Shown in pieces: positions 9,016 through 31,379 of a stretch of 54,986 nt of DNA (its first letter is position 1; every line of letters starts with the position of its first letter). The translations under genes and the position numbers were made by a program. The notes below the pieces were generated by a model. That model saw only the letters and a list, made by a program, of their open reading frames with translations, searched no databases and was not told where the DNA came from. Where the stretch lies: positions 1-54,986 of the forward strand of contig VXRC01000020.1 of the NCBI GenBank assembly GCA_009838645.1, in the 5' to 3' direction. This stretch comes from Gemmatimonadota bacterium (lineage in GTDB: Bacteria > JAAXHH01).

Positions 9016-9032
9016 AAAGTCCCGCCGGTCCG

Positions 9033-10148
9033 TCACTTCAGCCGTTCCGGGTTCAGGCCCCCCAGTTCCGGAACGACGAACCTCCCTTCCCTCCGGATCA
9101 CTTCCCCGTCGAACTCGATGGTCCCGCCGCCGAATTCCGGCGTCTGGATCATGACCATGTCCCAGTGGACGGCGGACCGGTTGCCGTTGTCGGCCTCCTC
9201 GTAGGCCTGACCCGGCGTGAAGTGGAAGGACCCGGCGATCTTCTCGTCGAAGAGGATGTCCAGCATGGGCGCGGTGATGTGGGGGTTGAAGCCGATGGCG
9301 AATTCGCCGATGTAGCGCGCCCCCTCGTCCGTGTCGAAGATCTCGTTGAGCTTCTCCGTCCGGTTGCCCGTCGCCTCGATAATCCTGCCTTCCTCAAATC
9401 TCAGTTGCACGTCCGTAAACGTCACGCCGTGGTACAGTGTCGGCGTGTTGAACCGGATGACGCCGTTGACCGAGTCGCGCACCGGCGCGGTAAAGCACTC
9501 GCCGTCGGGGATGTTGCGGTCGCCCGAGCATCCCACGGTGGGAATGCCGCGGATGCTGAAGGCCAGGTCGGTGCCCGGACCCGTGATCCAGACGCGGTCC
9601 GTGCGGTCCATGCGCTCCTTCAGCGGCGCCAGCGCCCGTTCCATCTTCCCGTAATCCAGCGTGCACACGTCGAAGAAGAAATCCTCGAAGGCCTCGGTGC
9701 TCATGCCGGCCTGCTGCGCCATGGACGGAGTCGGCCAGCGCAGCACAACCCACCGGGTCTTCGGCACCCGGATTTCGAAGTGCACGGGCTTGAGCCAGCG
9801 TTGCTCGTAGAGCCGCATGGCTTCGCCCGGGACGTCCGACATCTCCATCACGTTACGGCTGCCGCGCAGGGCCATGTAGGCCTGCACCCGCTCCATGCGA
9901 TGGGATTCATGGGCGCCTGCGGCTTCCATGGCGTCCTCGTCCCCGGCGCGGACCAGTTCCCGCATCACGCGCTGGTGCTTGATGGAGACCAGCGGCACGC
10001 CGCCCGCCTCCCGGATCGCGCGGATCAGCGAGATCACCATGTCGTCGGGCACGTCGAAGGCCTCGACGAGCACCCGGTCCCCGGCCTTTAATTTCGTCGA
10101 ATGTCCGGTGAGCACTTTCGCCAGGTCGCCGTATCGTGGGTCGCGCAT
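9033..10148 (-). CDS. M29-family metallo-aminopeptidase
   Basis: 371 residues, cytoplasmic (no signal peptide). The C-terminal half carries the dimetal ligand set of the M29 family (AmpS/AmpT/PepS): E217 in PDGECFTAPV, E282 in IGEFAIGFNP, H309 and Y316 in FHFTPGQAY, and H328 and D330 in VHWDMV. The spacing agrees with the Thermus enzyme family. M29 enzymes remove N-terminal residues from short peptides with Co, Zn or Mg. The length is slightly below the usual 400-410. GGAG lies about 10 nt upstream of the ATG. It converges with the GWxTD pair and is separated by about 160 nt from the GH106-like gene upstream on the same strand. Confidence 0.9.
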   Translation of the reverse strand: MRDPRYGDLAKVLTGHSTKLKAGDRVLVEAFDVPDDMVISLIRAIREAGGVPLVSIKHQRVMRELVRAGDEDAMEAAGAHESHRMERVQAYMALRGSRNVMEMSDVPGEAMRLYEQRWLKPVHFEIRVPKTRWVVLRWPTPSMAQQAGMSTEAFEDFFFDVCTLDYGKMERALAPLKERMDRTDRVWITGPGTDLAFSIRGIPTVGCSGDRNIPDGECFTAPVRDSVNGVIRFNTPTLYHGVTFTDVQLRFEEGRIIEATGNRTEKLNEIFDTDEGARYIGEFAIGFNPHITAPMLDILFDEKIAGSFHFTPGQAYEEADNGNRSAVHWDMVMIQTPEFGGGTIEFDGEVIRREGRFVVPELGGLNPERLK

Positions 10149-10310
10149 GGGGTTCTGTCTCCGTTGGATTTCAGTATTGTGATCTTATAGTTGGATCGGC
10201 CTTTCACGCGGTCACTCGGGAAATCGCCGGGCATGCTCAGATCGCGTCCGCATGCGCTGGTCCTCCGCCCGCACCAGCCCGTGTCCGCGCCCGCCGCCCA
10301 CGCCTGCGTT

Positions 10311-12155
10311 TCACACCTCGATCCGCCCCGGTTTCACGTCCACCGCGCCCGACGCCGATATCCTGACCAGCATGGCGTCTTCGGGTTCGAAGGCCAGGTA
10401 CACCGTCCGCTCCCTGCCGTTGACGTGGAGAACCACCTCTCGCTCGACCCGATCCGTAGAACGCCAGCCCTCGTAAGCCATGGGGTACCGGATCCGCTTC
10501 GTGTCGGGATGGGCGAAGAATACATGGTAGTCGCCGTCGACCTCCCGGCACCAGAACTCCGGCGCGTCCCGGCCGCTCACGAGGGGAGGATGGCGTAGCG
10601 CGGCGACCGGATCCGCCGTGACCGAGGGCTGGCTCATCAGTTCCGTCAGGCGATCCCCGTAATCCGCTGGCGGACGGTGGCCCGGTGCGGCGATCCGGCG
10701 CGGAACGCAGATCCGGGCGCCCTCCCGGGCGAGGCGAAGCAGGGCCGAAAGGCCGTCGCCGTCCAGCCACTCCGCGTCCACGTAGATCATGGAAAACGCA
10801 GCCTCGCCGTACCGGACGCGCCTGTCCTCCACAACCGCCTCCTCCAGAAAAGGCGTCGAGATCCACAGGGGGTGATAACCGAGAAGGCCGGCCGGCCGTT
10901 CAACGGTCTGCAGTTCCCAGTAGTAGTTGGCGGCCGGACCGCGCCGCTCCTCGGGCAGCAGGTGGCGCATCCAGTGGTCTTCCAGCGGAAGGTATACCGC
11001 CACGTCCGTGCAGGTCCTGCCCTGCTTGACGAAATCGGCGGCCTCCGCCAGATAGGCGTTAAAGGCCGGAAGCTGGCCGGCGAACCCGCTGTCCGGACCG
11101 ACGTGCGTGGTCGCGTAGAAGGTGTTGGACCCGCCCGGCGCATTGTAGGGCATGCCGTGCCAGACGATGTGGTTGACGCCGTTGGCGAACACCGCGTCCG
11201 CCATGAGCTTCAGGTCCTCCACCTTCTCCTCGCCGTGATGGGGCGACGGCGCGGGCCACGGCTCGTAGCCGTAGATGCAGGTGAAGGTCTCGCAGGTCAC
11301 GACGGGCCGCGCACCCAGGGCCGCCGCCGAACCCGGGATGGCCGAGAAGAAGGTCTCGAACAGCAGGGCCTCGGATTCAGGGACGTCCGCGAGCGCGAAG
11401 GCGGCCAGCAGGTCGGCCGGCGCTCCGTGACACTGCACGCGGCTCACGGAACCGAGACGGCGGCAGATTTCGGCATAGGGCCTGAAGAAGCCCTCGATCG
11501 CCGCGTCCGACAGGAGCTTCCGGTAGTCGTAACGCACATCGGGATGCTCGTCGATCGATGCCTTGAAGGGTTCCAGGTCGTACCCGAATCGGTCCCGGAA
11601 GACCGGATCCAGGTGCGCGCTCCAGAGCCCCTCCGGGTACACCTCCCACGAATCGGAGAACAGCGCCGAGGTGGTGCCCCGCAGGGCCGGTTCCAACGCG
11701 CCGCCGACGTGGCCGGCGTACCGCTCCAGCGCGTCCGGATCCAGGTGGTTCAGGATCCGGCCCCGGCCGTAGTAGGACAGCTCCCACGACTTCTCCAGCC
11801 GCTGGTCCGAAGGCCCGCCGAATACCTGTCCCCCGTCCTCCTCCGGTACGATCGACCCGCCGAAGGGCCATGAGGTGCTGAAGGTGAAGTCGCATCCGAT
11901 ACCCAGCCGGTCCGCCTCCGCCTTGGCGCCGGCGACCAGGCCGGACCACGCCTCGCTCAGCCAGCGGGGTCCTTCCCCGGCCCCGGGCTGCGGATACATG
12001 AAAGCGATCTCCACCCCGCCGAACCCCTGGTCCCACACCCATTTAAGCTGAGACCTGACGTCTTCTTCCCGGATGTCGTCGTGGAACCACCACCAGCGCG
12101 TGTAGGGACGGGAGTCCGAAAAGGGGCGGTAGGTCCTGGTCAGTTCGTTCGACAT
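10311..12155 (-). CDS. GH106-like (alpha-L-rhamnosidase-related) protein
   Basis: 614 residues without signal peptide. The N-terminus RPYTRWWWFHDDI (residues 16-28) followed by an alternating helix and GGVEIAFMYPQ (46-56) matches the TIM-barrel start of GH106 and related glycoside hydrolases. FSDSWEV (166-172) followed by DRFGYDLEPF (188-197) is the segment of the family that carries an acidic residue after the barrel strand. It is about half the length of secreted GH106 rhamnosidases and lacks their extra beta domains, so it acts in the cytoplasm if active. Substrate is not predictable; rhamnose- or uronate-containing oligosaccharides are possible. The start region is tandemly repeated (12153-12199), giving three ATGs 17 nt apart; the one at 12155 is the only one in frame with the conserved N-terminus. 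Confidence 0.7.
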   Translation of the reverse strand: MSNELTRTYRPFSDSRPYTRWWWFHDDIREEDVRSQLKWVWDQGFGGVEIAFMYPQPGAGEGPRWLSEAWSGLVAGAKAEADRLGIGCDFTFSTSWPFGGSIVPEEDGGQVFGGPSDQRLEKSWELSYYGRGRILNHLDPDALERYAGHVGGALEPALRGTTSALFSDSWEVYPEGLWSAHLDPVFRDRFGYDLEPFKASIDEHPDVRYDYRKLLSDAAIEGFFRPYAEICRRLGSVSRVQCHGAPADLLAAFALADVPESEALLFETFFSAIPGSAAALGARPVVTCETFTCIYGYEPWPAPSPHHGEEKVEDLKLMADAVFANGVNHIVWHGMPYNAPGGSNTFYATTHVGPDSGFAGQLPAFNAYLAEAADFVKQGRTCTDVAVYLPLEDHWMRHLLPEERRGPAANYYWELQTVERPAGLLGYHPLWISTPFLEEAVVEDRRVRYGEAAFSMIYVDAEWLDGDGLSALLRLAREGARICVPRRIAAPGHRPPADYGDRLTELMSQPSVTADPVAALRHPPLVSGRDAPEFWCREVDGDYHVFFAHPDTKRIRYPMAYEGWRSTDRVEREVVLHVNGRERTVYLAFEPEDAMLVRISASGAVDVKPGRIEV

Positions 12156-16626: not shown

Positions 16627-17535
16627 ATGCTTGAGAGATTCACTGGCCAGGATGGACGAACCTTCGTGATTGATGCGCTAAGGGATCAGTCTGTCACAAG
16701 CGGGGATGCCAGACTCGCTGAGACTGTCTGCAACCATGCAGAGGTCGTGGGATTCTCTCAAGGGTCTACCATAATTAAAGAGTCAGCACCAGACAACGAC
16801 ATCTACTTCATTTTGGCCGGCGTGGTCTCGATCCGAGTAGGTGGCAGAGAGATCGCGGTTAGGACAGCGGGACAGCACATCGGTGAGATGGCAGTGGTGG
16901 ATCCTGGACAGCCACGGTCCGCATCAGCGGTCGCTGATGGTGAGGTAGTTGTCGCCCGAGTTTCTGCAAGGACTTTCATAAACCTGGCAGAAGCCAATGC
17001 GCGACTATGGCGGAACATCGCTCGTACATTGGCCGAACGTCTTAGGCAGCGAAACCGATTCGTCTCATCAATGAATCCACGGCCCGTCTTATTCGTTGGC
17101 TGTTCAACAGAGTCGCTCCCGGTCGCTCAAGCTATCCAATCGGCTCTCGCCCACGACCCAATTGAAGTCAAAGTCTGGACCGATGACATCTTCGAGGCAT
17201 CCGACTTCCCAATCCTATCATTGGAGCGCGAGTTGTCTATAGTCGATTTTGCCGTCCTTCTCCTGTCTCCTGACGATACGGTGATCAGCCGTGAAACCAC
17301 CAGTGACGCGCCGAGGGACAACATAGTGTTCGAACTGGGACTCTTCATGGGAGCCTTGGGACATTCGCGCACGTTCCTGGTCTATCCATATAGCATCGAC
17401 ATTAAGATTCCAACGGACCTCGCAGGAATCACACCCTTGACATACGAGCAAAGGCCACAGTGCGAGCTTCCATCTGCGATTGCTCCAATGTGTATCCAAC
17501 TGAGAAACCGAATACTGAAGGTCGGTCCGCGCTGA
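16627..17535 (+). CDS. pycTIR: Pycsar-type effector: cyclic-nucleotide-binding domain + TIR-like domain
   Basis: 302 residues. Residues about 35-145 form a cNMP-binding domain: IYFILAGVVSIRVGGREI, then the phosphate-binding cassette with G86-E87 and R97 in GQPRSASA. Residues about 152-300 form a TIR-like domain of the PF10137 type, starting PVLFVGCS, with VWTDDIFEAS, FAVLLLSPDD and the signature RDNIVFELGLFMGALG (E236 in FELG is the expected catalytic Glu). In Pycsar immunity the sensor binds cCMP or cUMP and the TIR part depletes NAD+, stopping growth of infected cells (established knowledge). AGGAAAG lies about 8 nt before the ATG. A class III cyclase gene follows after 23 nt, giving the diagnostic two-gene layout. 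Soluble and cytoplasmic. Assignment to Pycsar rather than another cNMP-gated system rests on this pairing. Confidence 0.88.
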   Translation: MLERFTGQDGRTFVIDALRDQSVTSGDARLAETVCNHAEVVGFSQGSTIIKESAPDNDIYFILAGVVSIRVGGREIAVRTAGQHIGEMAVVDPGQPRSASAVADGEVVVARVSARTFINLAEANARLWRNIARTLAERLRQRNRFVSSMNPRPVLFVGCSTESLPVAQAIQSALAHDPIEVKVWTDDIFEASDFPILSLERELSIVDFAVLLLSPDDTVISRETTSDAPRDNIVFELGLFMGALGHSRTFLVYPYSIDIKIPTDLAGITPLTYEQRPQCELPSAIAPMCIQLRNRILKVGPR

Positions 17536-17558
17536 AGCTGGTTAAAGGAGTAGAGAGT

Positions 17559-18251
17559 ATGGGACTTGGTGACGACCTCAATTCAGAAGTGAGAAAGATC
17601 CTCCAAGAGACCTGGAGCAAACGCACTGGCCAGGTTATTCCAGAAGCAGATGACCTGAAACTCGGTAATGATGCGGTTATTCTAGATGGCACGGTACTAT
17701 ATGCAGATCTTGACGATTCTACCAGGTTGGTAGACACGAAGAAGCCGTTCTTCGCGGCAGAGATTTACAAATGCTACTTGGTATGCGCTGCCAGGATTAT
17801 CCGCTCAGAGGGTGGAGAAATCACATCCTACGACGGTGATCGCGTAATGGCGGTCTTTATCGGTAATTCAAAGAATAGTAGTGCTGCACGCACAGCTCTC
17901 AAAATCAACTATGCCGTGAAAAACATCGTCAATCCTGCAATAAAAAAACAATATCCCAAGACTAACTATTCGGTTAAACATGTAGTAGGAATCGACACCA
18001 GCGAACTCTTTGTGGCACGAACGGGTATCCGGGGAGCTAATGACCTCGTGTGGGTTGGCCGAGCGGCCAACTATGCTGCCAAATTATCTGCGCGGTCTGG
18101 GCCACCTACACAGATAACCAGTGACGTATACGACATGCTTCATAAGAACTCAAAGTTCGGCCAGAATGGAAAGAACATGTGGACTTCAACAACAGCTCCA
18201 GAAATCGGGAATAAGAGGATATATACTTCAACCTGGTGGTGGAGTGTGTAG
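17559..18251 (+). CDS. pycC: Class III nucleotide cyclase, probable pyrimidine cyclase of Pycsar
   Basis: 230 residues, a single stand-alone cyclase domain without membrane or receptor part. The two metal-binding Asp residues are present: D50 in VLYADLDDST and D94 in TSYDGDRVMAVF. Downstream, VWVGRAANYAAKLSARSG supplies N171 and a basic residue (K175) where purine cyclases have the Asn-xxx-Arg pair. The general shape (short, soluble, with YADLDDST and WVGRAANYAAKL) matches PycC enzymes, which convert CTP or UTP to cCMP or cUMP during phage infection. Which pyrimidine is used cannot be read here. AAAGGAG 8 nt upstream fixes ATG 17559, although the frame is open further back into the effector gene. 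It converges with a HicB-like gene. Confidence 0.87.
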   Translation: MGLGDDLNSEVRKILQETWSKRTGQVIPEADDLKLGNDAVILDGTVLYADLDDSTRLVDTKKPFFAAEIYKCYLVCAARIIRSEGGEITSYDGDRVMAVFIGNSKNSSAARTALKINYAVKNIVNPAIKKQYPKTNYSVKHVVGIDTSELFVARTGIRGANDLVWVGRAANYAAKLSARSGPPTQITSDVYDMLHKNSKFGQNGKNMWTSTTAPEIGNKRIYTSTWWWSV

Positions 18252-18645: not shown

Positions 18646-21600
18646 TCAATCGTCTAAATCCAAGAAACCAAATTGTCCACCCCGTAGTATAGTTTCCCGG
18701 GCTTCTTCGGCGGTCCTACGTACGTTTTCGTCTTCGTTATTAAGACCTGCCTTCAAAATGGCCTTAGTGTCGTCAGGAGGGACGTATATCAAACCTTCTG
18801 TCGGCATGTTTTGGATCAACTTAGCGAAACAAAAGACAACTTTCGCGGTATGTTCCGGAATCATCTTTCGTAGCGCCATTATATGAAGAGAAGCGTAACG
18901 TGGTTCACCAATCTTAGTATCCAATATACCAGGAACATTTAGAATCTTTGTATAGGCGTCCAATCTCCAATCGGCTTCCAAACACTCGGACTTCATCCAG
19001 AATGTGTATTCACGAAGTTCCTTCGGTTCACCGGTTTTAAGTCTCCAATCAAAGAAGGCGGATATCTTCTGCCACAGCGTTTCGTCAACTTGCCGCTTAC
19101 CTGTACTATTCAGTTGACGACCTACGTAGTCGAACAAAATCGCCCACCGTTCTCGTTCGCCGTTCAATCGTTGGTAGAAACGCTCCAGTAAACTACCGCA
19201 TCCCGAAAGCGGAAACACTCCTCGTACATAGAAAACAAACAGATGTTCACCTAGAACGTCAATTGCCTCCCGACCGGGATGACTCTGTTTTTTAAGATCA
19301 TCCATATGGTCCAGAGCAAATTTGTAGTCATCATGAATAACCTCGAAGATTGGCATGTAGGGGTTATTCCATATGAGTAAACTTCCAAAACCTGCAAGCC
19401 AGACGGGCATGTTGTCCCTAGGAAAGAATTTAGGCTTGTGATTTTCAGCCCATGGCTTGGAAAGGTGATGAAGGTGTGGAAAGTATCTACCAAGTAGAGC
19501 GTATTCCGGTATAGTCAGAGGGCATCGCGCGTCGTGTTTAAATCGTTGTTCTAGAATTAAAGTGATCTCACTGACATCGGTCTCGGTGTTATACCTGCGC
19601 ACCCAAAGGCCGAAATCGACAAGATGTTCCAAAGCACGACCTCTTGTCGTGTTTATTGCGTACGTAAACGGATCGTCAGGATTTCGCAACACGGTCTGGT
19701 CACGATCAAGACTGTAGTCAAACTGAGTGCAGAGAATCTCAAGCAAACTGGCAAGCGCCACCCTGTTAGAAATCGGAACGTTGTTTTCCTCTTTGAGACA
19801 CATCCCAACTAAGTCTCCAACAGCCCGTCTGGAAGAACGCCAACTTACATCTTCCCCTAATCTATCGTGGTAACGAATAGTTGCCTCGCGATCTTCATCG
19901 AGATGGGATAAAACCCATTTGCAGAAGTCAAACCATCGGTTGAGTTGATCAAAGTTTCCCGCTTCCACTCGCGTTTGCATGGCCTGTATCATGTATTCTA
20001 CATAGATCGGCCGATTTATAAGATCGCAGTTTTGCTCTAACCAGAATGAAAGCCTATTATCATCCGGGATGATCGACTTGATGAATACGGACTGAAACGC
20101 ACCGGCCAATGCCGGGATGTTTACCTTGATCAACCAGTTGTCTTTGTCCGAATGTTCATCCTGCCATGCGTTGATGTACTCGAGTATTTCCTCGTCTGAG
20201 TAAGTGGATAGTTCTTCGGAGGTTTTTGGACTTCGATAAGAAAAAAAACCGCCTGTTGGTACTCGGACGGACAAATAGGTATCATCAGAAACTTCGTCCG
20301 CATCGTCATCACTGGCGAGTGATTGGTAATAACTGGCGTAATCACCAAAAAGTACTGAAGCAAATGGCCTGAGCTGCAATCGATGGTACTCGCGTTTCCA
20401 TTGTTCGAAATCCCTTTCACTAAACTGATCGCCAAACCATTCACGATACGTCGCCAGTTCAGGTCCCTTAACGATCAAATCAAAAATCCGGATTCGGTCA
20501 CTTTCCTTGAGAAAGGCGGCTCCATAATGTTCGCAGGCAGTCCTAATCATCCTTTGAAATTCATAGGGATACCTAGATCCTTCCGCATAATCGTTGTAGC
20601 CAAGGATCAATTCCTGAACCCAAGGTTTTGTCTGTTCATTCGGATACAAAGTGTAAAGGTGTTGACGGAGCCGCACGAATATTTGCCAGCGTTGGTTTCT
20701 TAGAACACGATCTAAGGACGCGATTGTTGCTCTAGATAACTGGGCAAAGACTTCCTTACAGGCATATGTTAATGTGTTTACGAGTGTTTCCTTGGATTCT
20801 GCGTTTTCTCGTCGTTGCTCTTCAAGTTTTGGGCACCATACTTCCGATGAATCATAGCTTATACTTTGTTCGATCTCGTCCTGATGCTTTCCTAGGCGAA
20901 TCAAGTTCGCTGTCGCATCTATGAGCATACGGGCGACCTTGAAGGGTTCTTTCAATACCAGCGGGCGAACTCCTTTTTCCATGACTTGCTGATAGTTCCA
21001 ATCGTCTAAAAGCGGGGCAGTTTCAAGCATCGTATCCATTGATACAGATACATCATCCTGACTGTACTCCGCTTTCCGCTGGTATTTGTCCTCAGCTTGG
21101 GGATCGGGCTGAAACTGAATAAGTACATCTGTAAGATCCAAGGCAGCTTGCGTCTGATCCTCGGTAGTCCAATGGGCTAATATCTCAGCGAATCTGTGTG
21201 GTATGAGATAGCGACTCAGGCTGGCGTACTCCAGAATCTTAGGCTGTAGGCTGACGGCTTGGCCACCATCAAGTGACAGTGCGATTTCCAGAACATATTC
21301 ATAGATTCTTGGGTTATCGACTTTCGGGAGTTCCAATACGATATCTATGACATCATCTGGTACGTGCTGGCATATCTTTTGAAGATAGAAAAGTTCGGGC
21401 CAAGATGGATATTGAACAGTACCGTCAGGGAGAACGATTTTACTGGGGGGATTTTGAAAGTAGTCGTTTTTGAGACGACTTAACCAATCTGGATCGCTAC
21501 AGTTTAAAAAAAAGTAGGTGTAGTTTGTACCGTGAGTTCGCAGTAACATTATCACACGGTCAATTTCAATCTGTGTAACGGAACTGCCCCTTCCTAGTAC

Positions 21601-22272
21601 CTCCTTGAGTACGGTGAGGTCCTCAGTGACTATAGGGCTAGACAGATCTACAGGTTCGATTTTGGATGTGTCTGGTTTGAATTCAGGCTCAAATGCTCTA
21701 ATGTAATCGGCCAATTTAGAATAGTGGTTTATATATGGTCTTGGTTGACATGCCTCTTTAAACACTTGATCTGCTGTCACGATGGCTATGCTCGCACCAT
21801 GCTGATGGTGGTATTGATCCAAAGCACTCAGTATTAATGCATCGGGAAATTCCTTTTGTTTTTTACCCGAAGCAAACGGCGGTTTGACCGCAAAGTACCA
21901 ATTTACAACCTCTTCTAAGCTCCCCACGAGGGGCAGCATTTCAACAATAAAGTGTTCCTTGAAAACCTCCCATTGTTGTTGCAGTTCGGCAAGGCATTGC
22001 TCCTCCAGTTCTTCTCCTGACGGGAGATCCTCAAATCCAAGAGAACTGACAGGGTGTATTTTGACAGCGTTTTCGAACGTCTTTCGCGCTTCACTTGCTC
22101 TTTCTCTGTATTTTCTCGCAAGTTCCCTTTCCATCATTGCAGGAATCAATAATCTCAGTCCTCCTTTTACAAAGGTCTCATTGAGGATTCTGAAATGCGT
22201 AGTGTCCAGGTTAAGGTCGTTCCTGCAAAACACTTCTGTATCAATGTACAGATTCGTAGGAGGGTGTCGCAT
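18646..22272 (-). CDS. Giant PIN-domain protein (DUF4935-like nuclease plus long helical region)
   Basis: 1208 residues. The first about 180 residues look like a PIN nuclease of the DUF4935 type: D11 in NLYIDTEVF, E48 in PAMMERELARKY, D144 in EFPDALILSAL and D168 in IVTADQVFKEA are the expected acidic metal ligands. The remaining about 1000 residues have no motif I recognise; they read as helical, Trp- and Leu-rich repeats and could be a HEAT-like scaffold. PIN domains cut RNA. The start has no clear Shine-Dalgarno. It lies 91 nt after the methylase gene on the same strand and probably shares its transcript, so it is likely part of the same defence module. Codon use is AT-rich like its neighbours. 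Confidence 0.75.
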   Translation of the reverse strand: MRHPPTNLYIDTEVFCRNDLNLDTTHFRILNETFVKGGLRLLIPAMMERELARKYRERASEARKTFENAVKIHPVSSLGFEDLPSGEELEEQCLAELQQQWEVFKEHFIVEMLPLVGSLEEVVNWYFAVKPPFASGKKQKEFPDALILSALDQYHHQHGASIAIVTADQVFKEACQPRPYINHYSKLADYIRAFEPEFKPDTSKIEPVDLSSPIVTEDLTVLKEVLGRGSSVTQIEIDRVIMLLRTHGTNYTYFFLNCSDPDWLSRLKNDYFQNPPSKIVLPDGTVQYPSWPELFYLQKICQHVPDDVIDIVLELPKVDNPRIYEYVLEIALSLDGGQAVSLQPKILEYASLSRYLIPHRFAEILAHWTTEDQTQAALDLTDVLIQFQPDPQAEDKYQRKAEYSQDDVSVSMDTMLETAPLLDDWNYQQVMEKGVRPLVLKEPFKVARMLIDATANLIRLGKHQDEIEQSISYDSSEVWCPKLEEQRRENAESKETLVNTLTYACKEVFAQLSRATIASLDRVLRNQRWQIFVRLRQHLYTLYPNEQTKPWVQELILGYNDYAEGSRYPYEFQRMIRTACEHYGAAFLKESDRIRIFDLIVKGPELATYREWFGDQFSERDFEQWKREYHRLQLRPFASVLFGDYASYYQSLASDDDADEVSDDTYLSVRVPTGGFFSYRSPKTSEELSTYSDEEILEYINAWQDEHSDKDNWLIKVNIPALAGAFQSVFIKSIIPDDNRLSFWLEQNCDLINRPIYVEYMIQAMQTRVEAGNFDQLNRWFDFCKWVLSHLDEDREATIRYHDRLGEDVSWRSSRRAVGDLVGMCLKEENNVPISNRVALASLLEILCTQFDYSLDRDQTVLRNPDDPFTYAINTTRGRALEHLVDFGLWVRRYNTETDVSEITLILEQRFKHDARCPLTIPEYALLGRYFPHLHHLSKPWAENHKPKFFPRDNMPVWLAGFGSLLIWNNPYMPIFEVIHDDYKFALDHMDDLKKQSHPGREAIDVLGEHLFVFYVRGVFPLSGCGSLLERFYQRLNGERERWAILFDYVGRQLNSTGKRQVDETLWQKISAFFDWRLKTGEPKELREYTFWMKSECLEADWRLDAYTKILNVPGILDTKIGEPRYASLHIMALRKMIPEHTAKVVFCFAKLIQNMPTEGLIYVPPDDTKAILKAGLNNEDENVRRTAEEARETILRGGQFGFLDLDD

Positions 22273-22363: not shown

Positions 22364-25300
22364 TTACCGCCCCATGCGGTACTTGATGTCATAATTTACG
22401 ATGAAATCCAACTCTTCGTCTGTAAATCCGTAGTGTTCAGCAAGCACCCGGTCGATTTCGTCAACGATAGGTTTCGACGGCTTCTGATTGAACTCGTCGT
22501 AGATGACTTTTCCAGTTGTTTGGTACAGAGTTTCCTTGCGCGTCTTGTGTTTATTGAAGTTTGCCATTAGTCGGTCAGTTAGGTTGGCGAGGCGAGCTTT
22601 CATGTCCACCGTCATTCGATCAAGCCCAAGCGGAAAATACTCGATTTCTCGTAGATTCAGGTGTCTACAGTCTGACAGTATCAAGAACCACCAGTAGAAA
22701 AGCGAACTGTTAAGTGCCGCCACTGTCGCAGCAGCATCCGGTTTTTTATCTAAAACCAGCTTCTTAACCTGCGTAGAAATTTGCTCTCCGTCTCGTTCGT
22801 TCCAGAAATATGGAGCGTAATCCATCGCACGGATCCAGTATTGAGGGGCGTTATGGAAATAAACCAGACCAGATCCGTGTTGAAGTAGTCGGTTACCAAG
22901 CTTCTCGTGGTCTGAAATACGGTGGATTATCTTTGAACCTAACACTTGTCCAATTTTTGGAATTGACCCTTCAACGATGCTCAGATATTCCCCTATGGAA
23001 GTCAGTGCCAGAGAATGAAATAACTGCACCCGTGCAATTGATCTCCAGCGTGAATAGGAAGTGGAATACGTACGCTTGTTATTGGTTTTTTCCTTATGCG
23101 AAAGTATGATCGTGACTCGTATATGTTGCAATCCATCGAACAACTTGGCTGGACGGTCATCAAAATGGGAGAACCAAAGACCGACACTATCGTCGTGGAG
23201 TTTGGTTTGGACGGGTATCATCCTTTGAGTACAGGAAACCGATAGTTGTACGATCATTCCCATACGACCGCCTGAAGGTAGTGTGGCATATGAGCGCTCT
23301 AGTACATATGAATATAAGTTACCGCAGGATTCCGTAGAGTATCCTATTACGGTGTAGTCCGCTTTAACGTTGCTGTATTCCACATACGGTGGATTCCCAA
23401 CTATCACGTCAAACCCACCACTCTGCATTATCCCGAAGAACTCGACGAACCAGTGAAAGGGCTGATGGCTTTCTCTCCACTGTTCGTAAGCCAACGAGTC
23501 GTCGGTTTTTATGCCGTATTCGCCTGCCAGATAGCTATCTAATTCCACTCGAAGTTCGTCCAAACATCCCCGAAGGACAGCTTTCGCGTTGGCAACGCCA
23601 CCCGCATCAATTTCGTGCTGTGTCTGCATGCTTTTGAACTGTCGAAAAGCCTGATCGGCGTTTCCGGCTCGCGCTTCGATCTTGGGAAGTTCCGACAATT
23701 TGAACAGATCGCCGCCAAGTGCTCGTTCCACCTCGGCCAGCGACGCAAAGCCGACTAAGGTATTACCCCCTCGAACGTTGAAGTCGATATCAGGCAACGG
23801 CTCGATCTGATCGTAACTTTCCAGTTGGGCGACGAGTTTAAGGAAGAGCCGCAGCTTGCAGATTTCTACGGCTTCTTCCATGATGTCCACGCCATAGAGA
23901 TTGTTGATGATGATGGACTTGAGGATGAAGTAGATTTCGTTGTCGTGACTGGCCACCTCGTCGCGCACATTGCGGAAGTCTTTGAGGCTCTCCGGGTGAT
24001 GTTTCCGTTTCGAGACGTACTGGTCTTCAAGGAACTGTTGCATCGCGTCCAAACAGGCGGAATATACGGGCTCCAGGATATTTAGGGCGGCAAACAGGAA
24101 GGCTCCGGACCCGCAGGTCGGATCGAGGACCGATATGCTGGTGACGGCCTTCCAGAATGCGCGGACCAACTCCGGCCCTTCGCTTTTGCTGATCACGTCC
24201 TGCGCAAATTGCTCTATGTTTAGATTGTAGGTGATAAGGTCGTTTATGGCAGTGACTTCGCCGCTCGCGAGTTTGGCGTAGATTTCTTCGTAACGCTCGC
24301 GACGGGCGACATGCTCGCGCCAGGTCTCAGTTAGAAGTGCGTATTCGGCAGGGGCAGCCTCGTTCCAGTTGTCCCGTTTGGTCACGTCTTGCAGGCCAGC
24401 GGCAATATCCGGTGGCAATGAACGTTTCTCAACTAACGGCTTACCGTCATGGACGTCATACGTGATACCGTGACGCACCGAGTCGTAGAAGTACTTGTCA
24501 GGATCGTCTTGTAGCAATCGCCAGACACCGCCACCGGACGTAAAAGCGATGGGGCAGTGTTTCTTCGCTTCGTCGAAGAGATAGGGCAGTATGGTATTGC
24601 GGCTGATGTACCCGGTAATGTCCTCCTTGGTGTAGTAGGCGCCCATCTGCTTCTGGTTGATGTATTTCTCGAAGATGTAACCGAGCACATCGGGGTTGAT
24701 CTCGTTGTCATTGCGCAGAATTCGGTCGTCAAGGTGCCACTGGTAGGCGTCGAAGAAATCAAATATGCACTCGAAGGCTTCATCGGGGATTTCGATCTGC
24801 GGGTTGTCTCGTTCCAGGTCATGCACATCGAAGAGACCGCCGTTGAGATATGGGACGTTGCCGATCAGCGCCGTAAGTTCCGCTGACCGATCCGCTTCGG
24901 GTCGGCCAAGGCCTTCATGGAAGAGACGCATGAGAAACAGTCGATAGAAGCCGTGGAATTTGCCCTCCCCTTCTGCTTCTTGTACCGCGTTTAGTTTGTT
25001 TCGGAGATAGTCTATGTCGCTGTCGAGGAACCCGCGCTTCTGGATGAAGTAGATGAACATCATCCGGTTCAGCATGATCGAGGCGTACCACTCGCGGTCG
25101 GCCATTTCCAGGATGCCTTCGATGAATCCCAGAAAGGCCTGGTGTTCGGTCTTGAATCGATCGTAGAACCTTTTGGTGACCCTCTCCACGTCAAATGCAG
25201 CACGAACACGGCCGGATACGTCGACAATGGACAGATCTTCTTCCTCTTCAATGCTGACAACCAGACGCTCCAATTTCTGTATCAATGCTTCGCCCGATTG

Positions 25301-25672
25301 TTCTTGACTGTAGAAATGCGATCGAGGGCGGTCTGGTCGCCCCGGCTCACGTTTCACCCACTGCCAGTGTTGCGACGAACGGTCGTGAGGCGTGTAGACG
25401 ATGATATGTTCGCGTACGGCTTTGGTGACCGATTTCTCAATCTTCTGACGGGTGGGATAGTCCGGGAAGTCGCCATCTGATTGTGCCACTTGCTGATACG
25501 CGACCATTCCGCGCTTATGCGCTATGGCATCGAGACGATAAGCACGATCACCTACCGTTACCTCGAGGTTCTCTCCACCGTGATCCCAGCCTAGATCCTC
25601 AATGAAGAGTGGCTGTAGGTCGAAATCTTCCAGACGTTCTCGAACCTGTTCTTTGTTAATTGGAGTAGGCAT
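22364..25672 (-). CDS. Eco57I/DrmMI-like adenine-specific DNA methyltransferase
   Basis: 1102 residues from the preferred ATG at 25672 (MPTPINKEQV); an in-frame ATG at 25744 would add 24 residues. Residues about 345-355 (GAYYTKEDITG) are the pre-motif typical of N6-adenine methylases. Motif I is SVLDPTCGSGAF (DPTCGSG at 517-523) and motif IV is NPPY at 760-763. The N-terminal 150 residues resemble the nuclease-like start of type IIG enzymes (FIEDLGWDHGGENLEV, then RLDAIAHKRGMVAYQQ), but QQ stands where an E-x-K would be expected, so nuclease activity is doubtful. The C-terminus is probably the target-recognition region. It methylates adenine in DNA; the sequence cannot be predicted. It is in the same direction as the helicase but separated from it by an inverted AbiE pair. 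Confidence 0.87.
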   Translation of the reverse strand: MPTPINKEQVRERLEDFDLQPLFIEDLGWDHGGENLEVTVGDRAYRLDAIAHKRGMVAYQQVAQSDGDFPDYPTRQKIEKSVTKAVREHIIVYTPHDRSSQHWQWVKREPGRPDRPRSHFYSQEQSGEALIQKLERLVVSIEEEEDLSIVDVSGRVRAAFDVERVTKRFYDRFKTEHQAFLGFIEGILEMADREWYASIMLNRMMFIYFIQKRGFLDSDIDYLRNKLNAVQEAEGEGKFHGFYRLFLMRLFHEGLGRPEADRSAELTALIGNVPYLNGGLFDVHDLERDNPQIEIPDEAFECIFDFFDAYQWHLDDRILRNDNEINPDVLGYIFEKYINQKQMGAYYTKEDITGYISRNTILPYLFDEAKKHCPIAFTSGGGVWRLLQDDPDKYFYDSVRHGITYDVHDGKPLVEKRSLPPDIAAGLQDVTKRDNWNEAAPAEYALLTETWREHVARRERYEEIYAKLASGEVTAINDLITYNLNIEQFAQDVISKSEGPELVRAFWKAVTSISVLDPTCGSGAFLFAALNILEPVYSACLDAMQQFLEDQYVSKRKHHPESLKDFRNVRDEVASHDNEIYFILKSIIINNLYGVDIMEEAVEICKLRLFLKLVAQLESYDQIEPLPDIDFNVRGGNTLVGFASLAEVERALGGDLFKLSELPKIEARAGNADQAFRQFKSMQTQHEIDAGGVANAKAVLRGCLDELRVELDSYLAGEYGIKTDDSLAYEQWRESHQPFHWFVEFFGIMQSGGFDVIVGNPPYVEYSNVKADYTVIGYSTESCGNLYSYVLERSYATLPSGGRMGMIVQLSVSCTQRMIPVQTKLHDDSVGLWFSHFDDRPAKLFDGLQHIRVTIILSHKEKTNNKRTYSTSYSRWRSIARVQLFHSLALTSIGEYLSIVEGSIPKIGQVLGSKIIHRISDHEKLGNRLLQHGSGLVYFHNAPQYWIRAMDYAPYFWNERDGEQISTQVKKLVLDKKPDAAATVAALNSSLFYWWFLILSDCRHLNLREIEYFPLGLDRMTVDMKARLANLTDRLMANFNKHKTRKETLYQTTGKVIYDEFNQKPSKPIVDEIDRVLAEHYGFTDEELDFIVNYDIKYRMGR

Positions 25673-25821
25673 TTGTATTTCCAGATGAGTATGCTGCTTG
25701 TTGATCTGAGCCGATTTTAGTAAGGAACCCGTACTAGAAAACATTCAGGATTTACTAATCTACTGCGACTAAGGTTATAGTGTTATCGAGATACAAACGA
25801 TCTTTGAAACATAAAATGTTT

Positions 25822-25900: not shown

Positions 25901-26704
25901 ATGATAAATACTAGTACCGATGACAAACGATCAAACCCAATTGGAAGATTAAGGCTTTCAACGGTATTGCAAGACGCGAACGAAGTCATCGAAACCGACG
26001 ATGTAGTCAAGACGCTATCTGTAACACGAATCGAAGCCTCGAAGCTATTATCCAGATGGGCCGGTCAAGGTTGGTTGCGACGAGTAGGGCGTGGGACTTA
26101 CATACCCGTTCCTTTGGATTTACTTGGCAGTCGCTATGTTTTGGACGATCACTGGGTACTAGTGCCATCACTTTACGGATCATCCTACATTGGTGGATGG
26201 ACCGCTGCGGAGTACTGGGACCTGACGGAACAACTGTTTAATGACACAGTCGTGATGACGTCGAATCCGGTTAGACAAAAGCAGCAGATCCGACATGGAG
26301 CAAGGTTCCTGGTGTTTCATGTTCACAAGCGCAAGGTGTTCGGCACTAAGACGGTTTGGCGAGGAAGCACAAGAGTGACCCTCTCGGACATTCACCGAAC
26401 CATTATCGACATGTTGCATAATCCAAAGCTAGGTGGTGGCATACAACATGTGTCGGATTGCCTGGATGAATACTTGAAGAAGCCGGAACGAAGTGATGAA
26501 TCGTTGATGGCATTTGCAGAGAAACTTGGTAATGGAGCAGTACTGAAGCGCTTGGGCTTCTTGATAGAACGGCTGTCCGGTCCATCAAAGCTCACGAAAT
26601 GGTGTAAAGAGCATATGACCACGGGTAACGCAAGGATTGATTCCGCACTTAAATGTACGCGCTTAGTAACTAAATGGCGGTTGTGGGTTCCACCGGGTTG
26701 GTAA
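25901..26704 (+). CDS. abiEi: AbiEi-family antitoxin / transcriptional repressor
   Basis: 267 residues. The N-terminal winged-helix region (VIETDDVVKTLSVTRIEASKL, then GWLRRVGRGTYIPV near residues 60-75) is followed by the alpha/beta part with YIGGWTAAEYWDLTEQ. This is the AbiEi_4 antitoxin type of type IV toxin-antitoxin systems. AbiEi represses the operon and counters the AbiEii nucleotidyltransferase without binding it directly (established knowledge). The ribosome site is weak (GAGAAATAACG). It is transcribed opposite to the methylase, with a shared intergenic region of about 230 nt. 14 nt separate it from the toxin gene. Confidence 0.87.
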   Translation: MINTSTDDKRSNPIGRLRLSTVLQDANEVIETDDVVKTLSVTRIEASKLLSRWAGQGWLRRVGRGTYIPVPLDLLGSRYVLDDHWVLVPSLYGSSYIGGWTAAEYWDLTEQLFNDTVVMTSNPVRQKQQIRHGARFLVFHVHKRKVFGTKTVWRGSTRVTLSDIHRTIIDMLHNPKLGGGIQHVSDCLDEYLKKPERSDESLMAFAEKLGNGAVLKRLGFLIERLSGPSKLTKWCKEHMTTGNARIDSALKCTRLVTKWRLWVPPGW

Positions 26705-26718
26705 TAGGATAAACATTA

Positions 26719-27945
26719 ATGATCGATAGAAGAGAGATTCTCGGCGCCGCGGAGATATCTAAAGTCCGTCCCCAAATCACCGAAAAAGACTACGTCTTGG
26801 GGTGGGTACTGTGGGGTATATTCGGAAACGAGGAACTCGCTGGAAACTGGGTGTTTAAGGGCGGAACTTGCCTAAAGAAGTGTTTCTTCGAGACCTATCG
26901 TTTCTCAGAAGATCTAGACTTTACAATAATGGATCCATCACATTTGAACGCCAAATTTCTCGAATCAGCATTCACCGAGGCATGCGAAAGGATCCACGAA
27001 GAAACAGGGATTGCACTGCCAGCTGAATTCAGGCAATTCGAAATCTATGAAAACCAACGTGGTGAGAATGCCTGTCAGGGGCGTGTCGGATATCGAGGAC
27101 CTGTATCGCCTCATGGGAACAACGCACCGAGGATCAAACTCGATCTAATATCAGACGAACGTATCGCCTTACCTCCGATTCAGACCCGTATATTTCATCC
27201 ATTCAGTGACGATCCTGAAAACGGAATCGTTGTGCAGTGTTATGCCTATGAGGAGGTCTTTGCCGAAAAAGTACGTGCCCTGGGTGAGAGAACCCGGCCG
27301 CGGGACTTATACGATGTAATCAACCTATACCGAAATGAGGGTATTCGTCCTTCAGCGAGAGTGCTACTCGATGTGCTACGTTCCAAATGCGAATTCAAGG
27401 GAATCGACGTACCAACTTTGGATATGCTGGAGCCGTTCAGACCGGAGCTGGAGGGCGCATGGGAGTCAATGTTGGGACATCAATTACCGGCACTACTCCC
27501 AGTGCAACACTTTTGGGATCAACTCGAAGAGTTCTTTCTCTGGTTGTTCGGTAAGCTAATACCTGAAAGACCTGCTCCATACACGGGTGAGGAAGGGGAG
27601 GAATTGATTCGGGACAGGTATATCGTTAATGCAGTTCCAAGGAGGGCGCGAGCACATCTCGAGGTTATTCGATTTGCTGCCGCCAATCGGATATGTGCTG
27701 AATTGCGTTACCAGGGTAGGACACGAAAAATCGAACCGTATTCGTTGCGACGATCCAGGGTGGGCAATGTTATACTTCACGCGCATAACGTAGACAAGAA
27801 CGCCCACAGGAGTTACAGGATTGATCGGATTGAAGATGCTCGATTGACCAGTACGGCCTTCGTGCCGCGGCACGAAATTGAGTTGACGCCTACCGGGCCT
27901 TACAAGATTAAACCTTCAGCAAAACGCTGGGGATCAAGATGGTAA
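26719..27945 (+). CDS. abiEii: AbiEii nucleotidyltransferase toxin with C-terminal WYL-like domain
   Basis: 408 residues. The nucleotidyltransferase signature is intact: KGGTCLKK (47-54), RFSEDLDF with D65 and D67, and FAEKVRALGERTRPRDLYDV (181-200). AbiEii toxins transfer nucleotides (GTP or others) to target RNA such as tRNA and stop translation. After the toxin fold and a linker, residues about 313-390 read as a WYL-like domain: ICAELRYQGRTRKIEPYSLR, VILHAHN and SYRIDRIEDARLTSTAFVPR. WYL domains are ligand sensors found on phage-defence regulators. A WYL tail on an AbiEii toxin is unusual and could let it respond to nucleic acid or nucleotides from infection (inference). AGGA lies about 9 nt before the ATG. 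It converges with the helicase gene. Confidence 0.85.
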   Translation: MIDRREILGAAEISKVRPQITEKDYVLGWVLWGIFGNEELAGNWVFKGGTCLKKCFFETYRFSEDLDFTIMDPSHLNAKFLESAFTEACERIHEETGIALPAEFRQFEIYENQRGENACQGRVGYRGPVSPHGNNAPRIKLDLISDERIALPPIQTRIFHPFSDDPENGIVVQCYAYEEVFAEKVRALGERTRPRDLYDVINLYRNEGIRPSARVLLDVLRSKCEFKGIDVPTLDMLEPFRPELEGAWESMLGHQLPALLPVQHFWDQLEEFFLWLFGKLIPERPAPYTGEEGEELIRDRYIVNAVPRRARAHLEVIRFAAANRICAELRYQGRTRKIEPYSLRRSRVGNVILHAHNVDKNAHRSYRIDRIEDARLTSTAFVPRHEIELTPTGPYKIKPSAKRWGSRW

Positions 27946-28016
27946 CGGCATTGGGTTGATATGGAATACTGAGGGGATTTATCGAGACCACTGGTGCTTG
28001 AACTCTGGACATCTGA

Positions 28017-31000
28017 TTAGTCTTCCGAAATCAACCCCATCGAGCAGATGATCCTTGGCTCCAGTTCTTCGTCATCTTCCTGCACGATACAGAGTCGGCC
28101 CTCGTCTCTGAGCGCAATTACCAGTTCGGCCAGGATTTCATCTGAAATTCCACTACGTAGTTGTCTGTTTAACGTATCCACCGCAGCTTGTCGTAAGGGA
28201 TGGCGATAGATTTCATCAATCGTTTTGTGTAAAGCGTCAGATTCGAACAAAGTGCCCTGAACGCTGTCGGCGTAGCTCTTAAGCCTTTCATAGGTTCTAA
28301 ACCTCGCGCCTGACGGCCGACCCAACTGCCCGCCAACGCGTTTTTCCGACCTTCGTATATGTTTCGCCGCCTGCGTCACGAGTTCGTGGTGTGTATCGTG
28401 ACGAACCATCGCCGGCGTATTCGGATCGCATTCGGCGGAACGAAGAATCTCGAACTGACTCTCCGAGATACTCTCACCGTTCCTGTTTACCCACGTCAGG
28501 GCGTCGTTCCCTTGACCAGTCCGCATATGAACGAGCACCCCATCCGGTCGTTTCGGGCGTACACTGTAGGATTTTGATGAATGAACACCCGAGGGAAGAT
28601 CCTCGATGGTTTTCTTGAGCGACGAATCTGCATCGGTTGCATTACGCCAAATTTGATAAGCATACGAAGAAAGGTCGACATCCGATTCGTCGTCATCGTC
28701 GAGAATACCGGATTTCTCATTGTAAAGGTCGAACACCGTTTTCGTATCCTCATCCTCGAAGAATGCCTCGTCTGTTCCTACGACCTCGGCATTCTCCTTC
28801 AGACGTGTACGCACCCGCGCTCTAAGGCGTATCAAGCGCTCCACACCCTCGACTGGAAGGAATGAATAACACAGGATTTCTGCTGCCTTCTGGCCAATAC
28901 GGTCTACTCGGCCTGCCCGTTGAATCAACCGTATGATAGCCCACGGTAGATCATAGTTTACCACGATGGCGCAGTCCTGCAGATTCTGTCCTTCACTGAG
29001 CACATCGGTGGAGACAAGGACCCGTATCTCGCCGTGGTCGGTCGCATACTGTTGTTTCTCGTTGCAAATCGGGCTGAAACGCCACGCCAGCGCGGTGGGA
29101 TCTACTGAATCGCCTGTGACCGGGGAAGACTCAGAAACGCCGCGGACCTTGAGCTGGTTGTCCAGGTATTGCACCGTATCAGCAAATTGTGAAAAAACAA
29201 CGACCTTCTGATTTTTGTGTTTCTCCTTCAGAACCTTCTCCAGCGCATCCAGTTTTGCATCCTGCGTCGGTTGCCATGGTCCGGATCTTTCGATGAGACT
29301 CGTCAGTGTTTTAGTGTCAGATGTGAGTACTTTTTTTAGCCCCGTGACGAATAGCTGTGACGGCAACCACCGAAACCGGTTCTTGAACCGACCGGAGTAA
29401 AGCTGGTAGATCTCGGCTGCTCTTGCTCTAAAATCCTCTTCGACCTTAAGACCGGTCTCGCTACTCGGGGCCTCGTTTTCATCTTCTTCGTCCATATCGA
29501 AGATGCTGCCTGTCGCCGAATCCGAATCTTCGTCGTAGGACTGTGTGTCCAGGATTCCAGTATCCGTCGTACCAATCGGTAACGGCAGTCCTTGTTCGAT
29601 GGCGTGAAGAAACACATAGTTGCGCAGAACATGACGTTCGACCGACAGCATGAAGGAATGGCCACTACTCTCGAGACGTTTGAACAGGTTGGTTCGGCAA
29701 AATCCCATGAGTCTCTTGCCAGCCCGTGACAGATCCTCGATGATCTTCTTTTCTTCCTGCGAAGGTGCTACGGCCGGTTCCTCCGCAACGTAGTTTCCTA
29801 GACCATAGCGAGGAAGTTCCAGGCTGTTGATAGCATCGACCACATCGTCCGAAAATAACCGGGCATACTGGTCGTCTATCTCGAACTCGACCGTCTTGGG
29901 TATACGCGTTGGGAAATAAGACCGACTTCCGTCCTCGAAGGTAAGGTACTTCCGGTCATCGTTCTCGTCAGTGGCAGCGTAGTTGTCCTGGATGAAACTG
30001 CGCGTTCTTCGTACTAGGTACAGCCGCATCAGTTCGCGCCAATCGTCCGCGAAGTCGGACTGTTCAAAAGCGGCCAGTGATCGGGCAGGAGCTTGATGAT
30101 GGCGTATAAACTCTGTTTCGCCCATTTCGCGAAGCATGCGCTCCGGTGCTATCCCAAGATCTTCATGCTCCGGAACGAAGAGTCGTAGCTGGTTGGACAG
30201 ATCGACGTACGTCTTATTGTACGGGGTTGCCGACAGCAGGATACACTTACTCTCGTTTTCACTGATGTATTCCCGAATAGCCCTGTAGCGCCTACCTTCG
30301 CGATTCCTGAGATTGTGACTTTCATCGATGATTACTACACGATACCGGCGCATCCCGGGCAGTTCGTTTATGGCACGACTGATCGATAACACCCGCGCGC
30401 GCATCCGAAATTGCTCCCGGTAATCTTTCCACATGGCCACCAGATTCTTGGGACAAATGATTAAGGTTTCGAGATTGTGATCGTCCTCGAAAATGCGCGC
30501 CAGCGCCGTGGCCATGAGCGTCTTGCCCAATCCAACAACGTCTCCAATGATAACACCGCCGCGCTTATTCAAATGATGCGCAGCGATCTTCACCGCTGCC
30601 GTTTGAAATTCCAGCAGCTTGTTTCCAAAATCGCGGGGAATGCGGAATTCGGCGAGCCCCGCCCTGGCTTCCTGCGAAAGGTGGTAAGCCATCTTTAGGT
30701 AGATTTGGTAGGGCGGTATCAGTTCTTCCCTTGCCCAGCTTGCCTCGATGATCTCAACAAGCTCTTTGGATATATCGATGCACCAGCGATCATCCCAGCG
30801 TGCTTCGAACCACTGAGCTAGTTTCTCGCAGGCATCGTGTTCCATAACATCGACGTTTAGTTCTCCCTGTTTGGAGAGACCGGACAGAGTGAGATTACTG
30901 CTTCCCAGGTACCCGACGATCGGGTTTATAGGATCAGGACGAAACAACAGGTAGAGTTTTGCGTGCAGCGTGTGTCTGAGGAACAACTTAACGACGACTT

Positions 31001-31379
31001 TCTTTTCTTTTATCTGTTTGGCAAGCCTTCGTAGTCCCTGTTCATCCGCGTTGCTTGGTGCCCCCGTTGCCAACTGATCTTTGAACTCTTCAGCTAGCTG
31101 TTTCTTTAGTTGAATTACCTTCCGGTTATCCAGGGCAGATCGGCTTTCGACCAGGCTGCTTGCCGCCCGGAATTCATCGTGGGGTAGTTGGTGCATTCCC
31201 ACCAGCAATCGGCAGCAGTGGCCTTCTCCACCACTCCATTTCTCCACGTATTGGTCGATGGATCTCCAGCCACGCAAGTTAAGGTATCCCACGCAGAAGT
31301 CTGCACTGTCAGACAACTTCATGGTTTGTGCAAGTGCCGGCAGAAGGGACTTTTCTATGTTATCGAAAATCTGTGGCAT
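28017..31379 (-). CDS. PLD-domain SNF2-type helicase of a DISARM-like module
   Basis: 1120 residues. Residues about 20-200 form a phospholipase-D-like domain (H139-x-K141 in LHAKLYLL, GSSNLT at 159-164). A SNF2/DEAH-type helicase core follows: Walker A DVVGLGKT (280-287), motif II DESH (352-355), LLSATPYN, FSQFADTVQYLD, STDVLSEGQNLQD and QRAGRVDRIGQ (about 818-830). Helicases of this shape accompany adenine methylases in phage defence, for example the SNF2-type DrmD with DrmMI in class 1 DISARM, where PLD is a separate protein DrmC. Here PLD and helicase are fused. It may translocate on DNA and nick it. The ribosome site is weak. It reads toward the methylase gene, and the AbrB-like gene lies just upstream on the same strand. 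Confidence 0.85.
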   Translation of the reverse strand: MPQIFDNIEKSLLPALAQTMKLSDSADFCVGYLNLRGWRSIDQYVEKWSGGEGHCCRLLVGMHQLPHDEFRAASSLVESRSALDNRKVIQLKKQLAEEFKDQLATGAPSNADEQGLRRLAKQIKEKKVVVKLFLRHTLHAKLYLLFRPDPINPIVGYLGSSNLTLSGLSKQGELNVDVMEHDACEKLAQWFEARWDDRWCIDISKELVEIIEASWAREELIPPYQIYLKMAYHLSQEARAGLAEFRIPRDFGNKLLEFQTAAVKIAAHHLNKRGGVIIGDVVGLGKTLMATALARIFEDDHNLETLIICPKNLVAMWKDYREQFRMRARVLSISRAINELPGMRRYRVVIIDESHNLRNREGRRYRAIREYISENESKCILLSATPYNKTYVDLSNQLRLFVPEHEDLGIAPERMLREMGETEFIRHHQAPARSLAAFEQSDFADDWRELMRLYLVRRTRSFIQDNYAATDENDDRKYLTFEDGSRSYFPTRIPKTVEFEIDDQYARLFSDDVVDAINSLELPRYGLGNYVAEEPAVAPSQEEKKIIEDLSRAGKRLMGFCRTNLFKRLESSGHSFMLSVERHVLRNYVFLHAIEQGLPLPIGTTDTGILDTQSYDEDSDSATGSIFDMDEEDENEAPSSETGLKVEEDFRARAAEIYQLYSGRFKNRFRWLPSQLFVTGLKKVLTSDTKTLTSLIERSGPWQPTQDAKLDALEKVLKEKHKNQKVVVFSQFADTVQYLDNQLKVRGVSESSPVTGDSVDPTALAWRFSPICNEKQQYATDHGEIRVLVSTDVLSEGQNLQDCAIVVNYDLPWAIIRLIQRAGRVDRIGQKAAEILCYSFLPVEGVERLIRLRARVRTRLKENAEVVGTDEAFFEDEDTKTVFDLYNEKSGILDDDDESDVDLSSYAYQIWRNATDADSSLKKTIEDLPSGVHSSKSYSVRPKRPDGVLVHMRTGQGNDALTWVNRNGESISESQFEILRSAECDPNTPAMVRHDTHHELVTQAAKHIRRSEKRVGGQLGRPSGARFRTYERLKSYADSVQGTLFESDALHKTIDEIYRHPLRQAAVDTLNRQLRSGISDEILAELVIALRDEGRLCIVQEDDEELEPRIICSMGLISED

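Follow-up and report, generated by a model that had tools for sequence, protein, structure and literature searches.

An AbiE-type toxin combining a nucleotidyltransferase with a WYL domain, and missing a C-terminal zinc finger, in a Gemmatimonadota genome

The window analysed here, a stretch of 54,986 nucleotides (positions 1 to 54,986) from contig VXRC01000020.1 of a Gemmatimonadota bacterium, contains an AbiE-type gene pair between a restriction enzyme–methyltransferase gene and a helicase gene. The features of this locus are as follows.

22364..25744, minus strand: type IIG restriction enzyme–methyltransferase (PADLOC REase_MTase_IIG, E 0)
25901..26704, plus strand: AbiEi antitoxin/autorepressor gene, 267 aa, winged-HTH plus AbiEi C-terminal domain (PADLOC, Pfam)
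26719..27945, plus strand: AbiEii–WYL toxin gene, 408 aa, cut short at the C-terminus by comparison with most of its family
26809..27519, plus strand: nucleotidyltransferase domain of the toxin, residues 31-267 (PF08843, E 1e-39)
27640..27894, plus strand: WYL domain of the toxin, residues 308-392 (PF13280, AlphaFold2 fold, Foldseek)
27932..27972, plus strand: scar of a lost zinc finger, comprising deletion junction, new stop, old C-terminus and old stop (alignment with the sister locus L096)
28017..31379, minus strand: HKD (PLD-like) and Snf2 helicase (Pfam PLDc_2, SNF2-rel_dom and Helicase_C; PADLOC C3a139, E 3.8e-51)

AbiEi lies directly upstream of AbiEii with a gap of 14 nt. Its product is matched by PADLOC profile PDLC02271 over residues 12-267 (E 1.9e-115) and, at or just under the cut-offs, by Pfam AbiEi_4 and AbiEi_1; no NCBIfam model matched AbiEi or AbiEii, and Rfam and tRNA scans found no RNA genes. 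The toxin reading frame carries KIEPYSLR (337-344), SYRIDRI (365-371) and TSTAFVPR (377-384), the motifs from which a preliminary description had read a WYL domain behind an intact nucleotidyltransferase, where that description had put them.

The nucleotidyltransferase is indeed intact. Pfam AbiEii (PF08843) covers residues 31-267 with 137.1 bits against a curated cut-off of 22.5, and the catalytic motifs KGGTCLKK, RFSEDLDF, D142, EK184 and RxRDLYD are complete. In an alignment of 56 family sequences, GGT..KK, RFSEDLDF, D142, EK184, R191 and RPRDLYD show little or no variation, with full invariance at G48, G49, D65, D67, D142, K184, R191, R195, D196 and D199, all present in the toxin. We take these residues to be the GG..D.D motif, the third aspartate, the Lys/Arg motif III and the R.RDLYD motif IV of pol-beta-like enzymes. 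An AlphaFold2 model of the 408-aa protein, computed from a 56-sequence alignment that left out two plasmid-record rows, has a mean pLDDT of 87, and its top match in a Foldseek comparison with the PDB is TglT/MenT3, over the front half (E 9.8e-8); the same fold matches are obtained with the AlphaFold model of a full-length relative (L002, 472 aa). A PDB sequence search using the single 408-aa protein returned nothing useful. The window pair shares gene order, antitoxin type, nucleotidyltransferase motifs and the MenT3/MenT4 fold with AbiE (AbiEi/AbiEii) and with MenAT of Mycobacterium tuberculosis. MenT toxins extend tRNA acceptor stems and bring translation to a halt (PMC10435456), and by analogy the window toxin is quite probably a tRNA-directed nucleotidyltransferase. 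For MenT3, neutralisation is reported to work through phosphorylation of an active-site serine, Ser78 (PMC10435456); judged by motif position, Ser63 within RFSEDLDF, invariant in the 56 sequences, may be the counterpart of that serine.

The back half of the toxin is a WYL domain. Over residues 313-375, PF13280 scores 27.2 bits (E 3.9e-6), above its cut-off of 21.8, and the WYL profile of PADLOC matches residues 306-389; with PF13280, near relatives score 24-37 bits and two distant plasmid proteins fall below the cut-off. Residues 308-380 are predicted to form a leading helix and five strands, an Sm-like barrel (pLDDT about 88-96), and Foldseek over the tail retrieves BrxR (72 columns, 2.0 Å), PafBC, DriD and CapW, the tail of L002 aligning with the DriD C-domain over 88 columns at 2.9 Å and 24% identity. 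Fold prediction therefore bears out the earlier reading of the tail. Profile, fold and family conservation together rule out a chance match, and we regard the assignment of the two domains, AbiEii nucleotidyltransferase and WYL, as nearly certain. Unlike PafBC, DriD, CapW and BrxR, which are transcription factors with an HTH and further C-terminal domains, the window protein carries an enzyme in place of the DNA-binding part.

How common is this combination? Scanning 84,980 species genomes turned up 80 relatives with identities of 41-65%, which belong to Alpha-, Beta-, Gamma- and deltaproteobacteria, Acidobacteria, Nitrospirae, Gemmatimonadota, Dadabacteria, Melainabacteria, Ignavibacteriota and others. 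WYL is retained by every full-length relative, the sole clear exception being a locus (L080) with a deletion and a stop. A tree built from the nucleotidyltransferase part unites the main WYL family in one clade of 75 rows (SH-aLRT 96). Outside that clade, where outgroup branches are long, lie three plasmid proteins whose WYL tail is distant, and either one or two origins of the fusion are possible on this tree. The combination is widespread, old and real. It is also a minority subfamily, since a sample of 240 genomes of the Alphaproteobacteria, the class of a Novosphingobium (G016), had some 80 AbiEii places, of which about 5 carried the tail. AbiEii relatives therefore do not all have a C-terminus unrelated to that of the window toxin. 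We also considered the possibility that the WYL–finger tail is a module common to other N-terminal enzymes and rejected it: in 385 genomes of the same class the strong matches to the tail were AbiEii proteins, and the weak matches that could be read were wHTH–WYL regulators, apart from two degenerate fragments. A search of phage records with the tail found none, and a phylum-wide search around the window's own genome (16 genomes) yielded nothing useful. A complete AbiEi/AbiEii–WYL–zinc-finger operon does occur on a viral or prophage contig of IMG/VR (L182, 5001-6440), and phage carriage of the module is therefore possible.

The fusion itself is not new, having been known since 2014 and lying inside a catalogued PADLOC AbiEii cluster. 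Makarova et al. 2014 mention WYL combined with an "AbiGII-like nucleotidyltransferase (DUF1814)", a family that is now PF08843, with ligand sensing in Abi systems as the suggested role (PMC4012209). The two domains and the proposed sensing of nucleotides or nucleic-acid fragments are those considered here, and the preliminary description was anticipated on both counts. The statement in that paper is a single clause that names no loci, and neither the C-terminal zinc finger nor the window locus figures in it. PADLOC profile PDLC02317 (396 positions) aligns with residues 1-397 of the toxin, tail included; it is named AbiEii only and ends before the finger of longer relatives. In the open-licence literature we found no paper describing the nucleotidyltransferase–WYL–zinc-finger architecture or an experiment on any of its members.

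Most relatives run to about 470 residues and finish in a CxxC-x15-H-x7-C motif, which is preceded by a variable linker rich in Arg and Ser. By pattern, 54 of the 80 relatives have this C2HC motif, and its putative ligands (C433, C436, H452 and C460 of L002) are invariant in 45 sequences. Pfam gives weak zinc-finger matches in the region; we do not claim a classical C2H2 fold, as the PDB matches to C2H2 fingers are mostly to repeated consensus fingers, and in the AlphaFold2 model the region shows strands only. The motif also ends two plasmid proteins that are 26% identical to the query, from Sphingomonas (L097, 5001-6398) and Sinorhizobium (L160, 3001-4395), distant nucleotidyltransferase–WYL–zinc-finger proteins with no AbiEi annotated alongside. 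In contrast to the window family, AbiE and MenAT toxins have neither a WYL domain nor a zinc finger.

What might the WYL domain bind? In PafBC of M. smegmatis, the substitutions R211A/R214A, R181A, R181A/R204A/R208A and Y196A abolish binding of single-stranded DNA (PMC11804915). PafB residues R181, R204, R208, R211 and R214 (M. smegmatis numbering, with the offsets of chain 7p5x_AY) align to R336, K360, R364, R367 and R370 of the window protein, in a sequence match that is weak (E about 0.6) and agrees with the fold match and the RxxRxxR spacing. Among the 56 sequences, R336 is conserved in 51, R364 in 52 (lysine in 3 more), R367 in 45 and R370 in 39 (lysine in 4 more), R370 being absent from about a quarter of the family. 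Because the arginines with which PafB binds single-stranded DNA are kept, sensing of nucleic acid is plausible. Of the eponymous W-Y-L residues, however, only the leucine is kept (V351-I352-L353), with I352 at the position of PafB Y196, and since both W and Y are absent and Y196A lost binding, affinity for single-stranded DNA cannot be assumed. A nucleic-acid ligand is our best guess from the arginine alignment, and by analogy with PafB we lean slightly towards the view that the WYL domain of the toxin binds nucleic acid.

Binding need not amount to sensing. It is conceivable that the WYL barrel and the finger form a substrate-binding arm that holds tRNA or other RNA for the nucleotidyltransferase, with no switch involved. 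The WYL fold is Sm/Hfq-like (PMC11804915), its basic residues are conserved, a zinc finger in the tail is typical of nucleic-acid binders, and RNA is the substrate of the enzyme family (PMC10435456). Close AbiEii and MenT enzymes nevertheless function tail-less (MenT3 and MenT4, about 290 aa; AbiEii relatives L154 and L161-L165), and the WYL domains of known proteins are ligand sensors; we therefore consider such an arm unlikely and prefer a WYL domain that senses nucleic acid.

The finger is deleted in the window copy and present in a 91%-identical sister locus from the same genus (L096, genome G011). Compared with the sister, about 144 nt are missing in-frame; the new stop TAA (27943-27945) follows the deletion junction, and the old C-terminus RHWVDMEY and the old stop (27970-27972) are still readable at 27946-27972. 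Across the family, the finger is lacking in 18 rows having enough downstream sequence, and parsimony gives at least 12 changes in its presence; in some of the rows the cause is a frameshift or a nonsense codon in a draft genome (L012, L023). Of the two parts of the tail, WYL is therefore the indispensable one, being kept in all full-length members against these repeated changes in the finger. A different deletion and stop in AbiEii occur in a Latescibacteria locus with the window's gene order (L080, 10001-10804), where WYL is gone and DNA coding for the zinc finger persists behind the stop.

The truncated C-terminus may be a sign of a decaying copy. Loss of the finger would then have inactivated the toxin, with AbiEi now kept mainly as a regulator, and the in-frame deletion and stop with their readable remnant, the differently deleted AbiEii in the same slot of L080, and a same-genus genome (G010) in which AbiEii is absent and AbiEi intact are all consistent with this. 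On the other hand, the nucleotidyltransferase and WYL frames are intact, and about 17 other finger-less relatives keep an open nucleotidyltransferase–WYL frame. Between the window and its sister in G011, dN/dS is 0.13 for AbiEi, 0.13 for the nucleotidyltransferase and 0.09 for the helicase, which indicates, as far as substitutions can tell, that AbiEi and the nucleotidyltransferase are under purifying selection; the WYL part, at 0.44, appears less constrained than the nucleotidyltransferase, a noisy value given that dS is only 0.13. Judging from these sequences, the toxin is not obviously dead, and we consider its decay improbable.

More improbable still is a role of the WYL domain in regulating the operon, by binding AbiEi, or DNA together with AbiEi, and so adjusting autorepression in the manner of WYL transcription factors: WYL is mostly found in such factors, the nearest non-AbiEii matches to the tail are wHTH–WYL proteins, and AbiEi accompanies AbiEii in 80 of 80 loci, adjacent or (L077) 2.4 kb away, but AbiE systems without WYL autoregulate as well (PMC7319586), and the plasmid proteins L097 and L160 do without an annotated AbiEi beside them.

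The preliminary description had also raised an association of AbiEii–WYL fusions with helicase–methylase loci, and this did not hold up. A tblastn search that used the helicase and methylase of the window as queries found both neighbours at only 2 of the 80 relatives: L080 has the same order as the window, and in L064 the helicase and methylase genes are adjacent, with AbiE beside them. The window's gene order is found in the same-genus genome G011 as well. Among 126 neighbour proteins of 14 loci, PADLOC detected scattered, unrelated defence matches (mads, Mko, Qat, type II/IIG methylases, DSR2). These two results rule out a special tie of the fusion to such loci.

The slot between helicase and methylase has had other occupants. 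Plasmids of Pelobacter and Rhodococcus have the two genes adjacent without any toxin–antitoxin system. On pSYSX of Synechocystis 6803 (L181, 10487-11117), a PIN/VapC-type toxin–antitoxin pair is flanked by homologues of the helicase and methyltransferase genes, and in G010 (L178, G010:C35:364000-381000, at 6711-11542) the slot has no AbiEii, and a gene for a 1276-aa DRT1a reverse transcriptase–nitrilase lies between helicase and an intact AbiEi. From G010, pSYSX and the toxin–antitoxin-less plasmid loci, we regard the slot as an exchange place for accessory modules, AbiE among them, and toxin–antitoxin or defence modules seem to enter it repeatedly. Since AbiEi is kept alone in G010, divergent from the methylase gene, it may regulate that gene too. 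The conserved start of the methyltransferase is probably at 25672 (MPTPINKEQ), to go by the sister loci. The window methylase is 69-80% identical to those of L167 and L178, far more divergent than the helicase (93-95%), and a comparison with L178 by eye shows the largest differences in the residues that follow the NPPY motif, as a recognition-sequence switch would give.

Other defence-like genes were seen elsewhere in the window. Positions 16627-18251 (plus strand) look like a Pycsar system, with a cNMP-binding plus TIR effector at 16627-17535 (PycTIR, PADLOC E 5e-102) and an open reading frame at 17460-18251 that by eye resembles a class III nucleotide cyclase and has no Pfam match. The 1208-aa product of the gene at 18646-22272 (minus strand) has a PIN_12 nuclease domain at its N-terminus, and its residues 676-992 align with the Dsr1 profile of PADLOC, in the C-terminal half of that profile (E 1e-18); it is perhaps a DSR1-like defence protein in which a PIN nuclease replaces the SIR2 domain.

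We propose the following model for the locus, in which the tRNA substrate, the identity of the ligand, the direction of gating and the anti-phage role are the parts that we infer, while the domains, their fold, the conserved motifs, the gene pair, the deletion and the independence from the neighbouring genes are shown by the analysis. Positions 25901-27945 would constitute a type IV toxin–antitoxin operon of a WYL-bearing AbiE subfamily, an independent cargo that landed between the helicase and methyltransferase genes. AbiEi would repress the operon and restrain the toxin, and free AbiEii, acting like MenT, would most likely add nucleotides to tRNA 3' ends, bringing translation to a stop. The WYL domain would bind nucleic acid, most likely single-stranded DNA or RNA fragments arising from attack on phage DNA or from its replication, and such binding would change the activity of the toxin or its sensitivity to the antitoxin, producing an abortive-infection response. 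In most relatives the C2HC finger may add affinity for nucleic acid; the window copy does without it. Taken as a whole, the statement that this is an AbiEi-restrained, tRNA-modifying toxin tuned by binding of nucleic acid to its WYL domain seems to us evenly poised between right and wrong. True gating of toxin activity by a WYL ligand, for which known WYL proteins provide the analogy, is a possibility that we lean somewhat against.

Should the model apply to the family at large, its members would form a widespread subfamily that unites sensor and effector in a single protein. This would be a nucleotidyltransferase modifying tRNA, which single-stranded nucleic acid switches by binding directly to its own WYL domain, and whose detachable C2HC finger, shed in the window copy, tunes or targets it; we put this forward as a tentative, speculative generalisation. 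For the release of AbiE toxins in infection, a toxin bearing its own WYL domain makes a direct sensing step testable in a single protein, with four point mutants and with PafBC and DriD as guides. The locus moreover offers natural variants, with the finger kept (G011), the finger gone (the window), the WYL region deleted (L080) and DRT1a replacing the toxin (G010).
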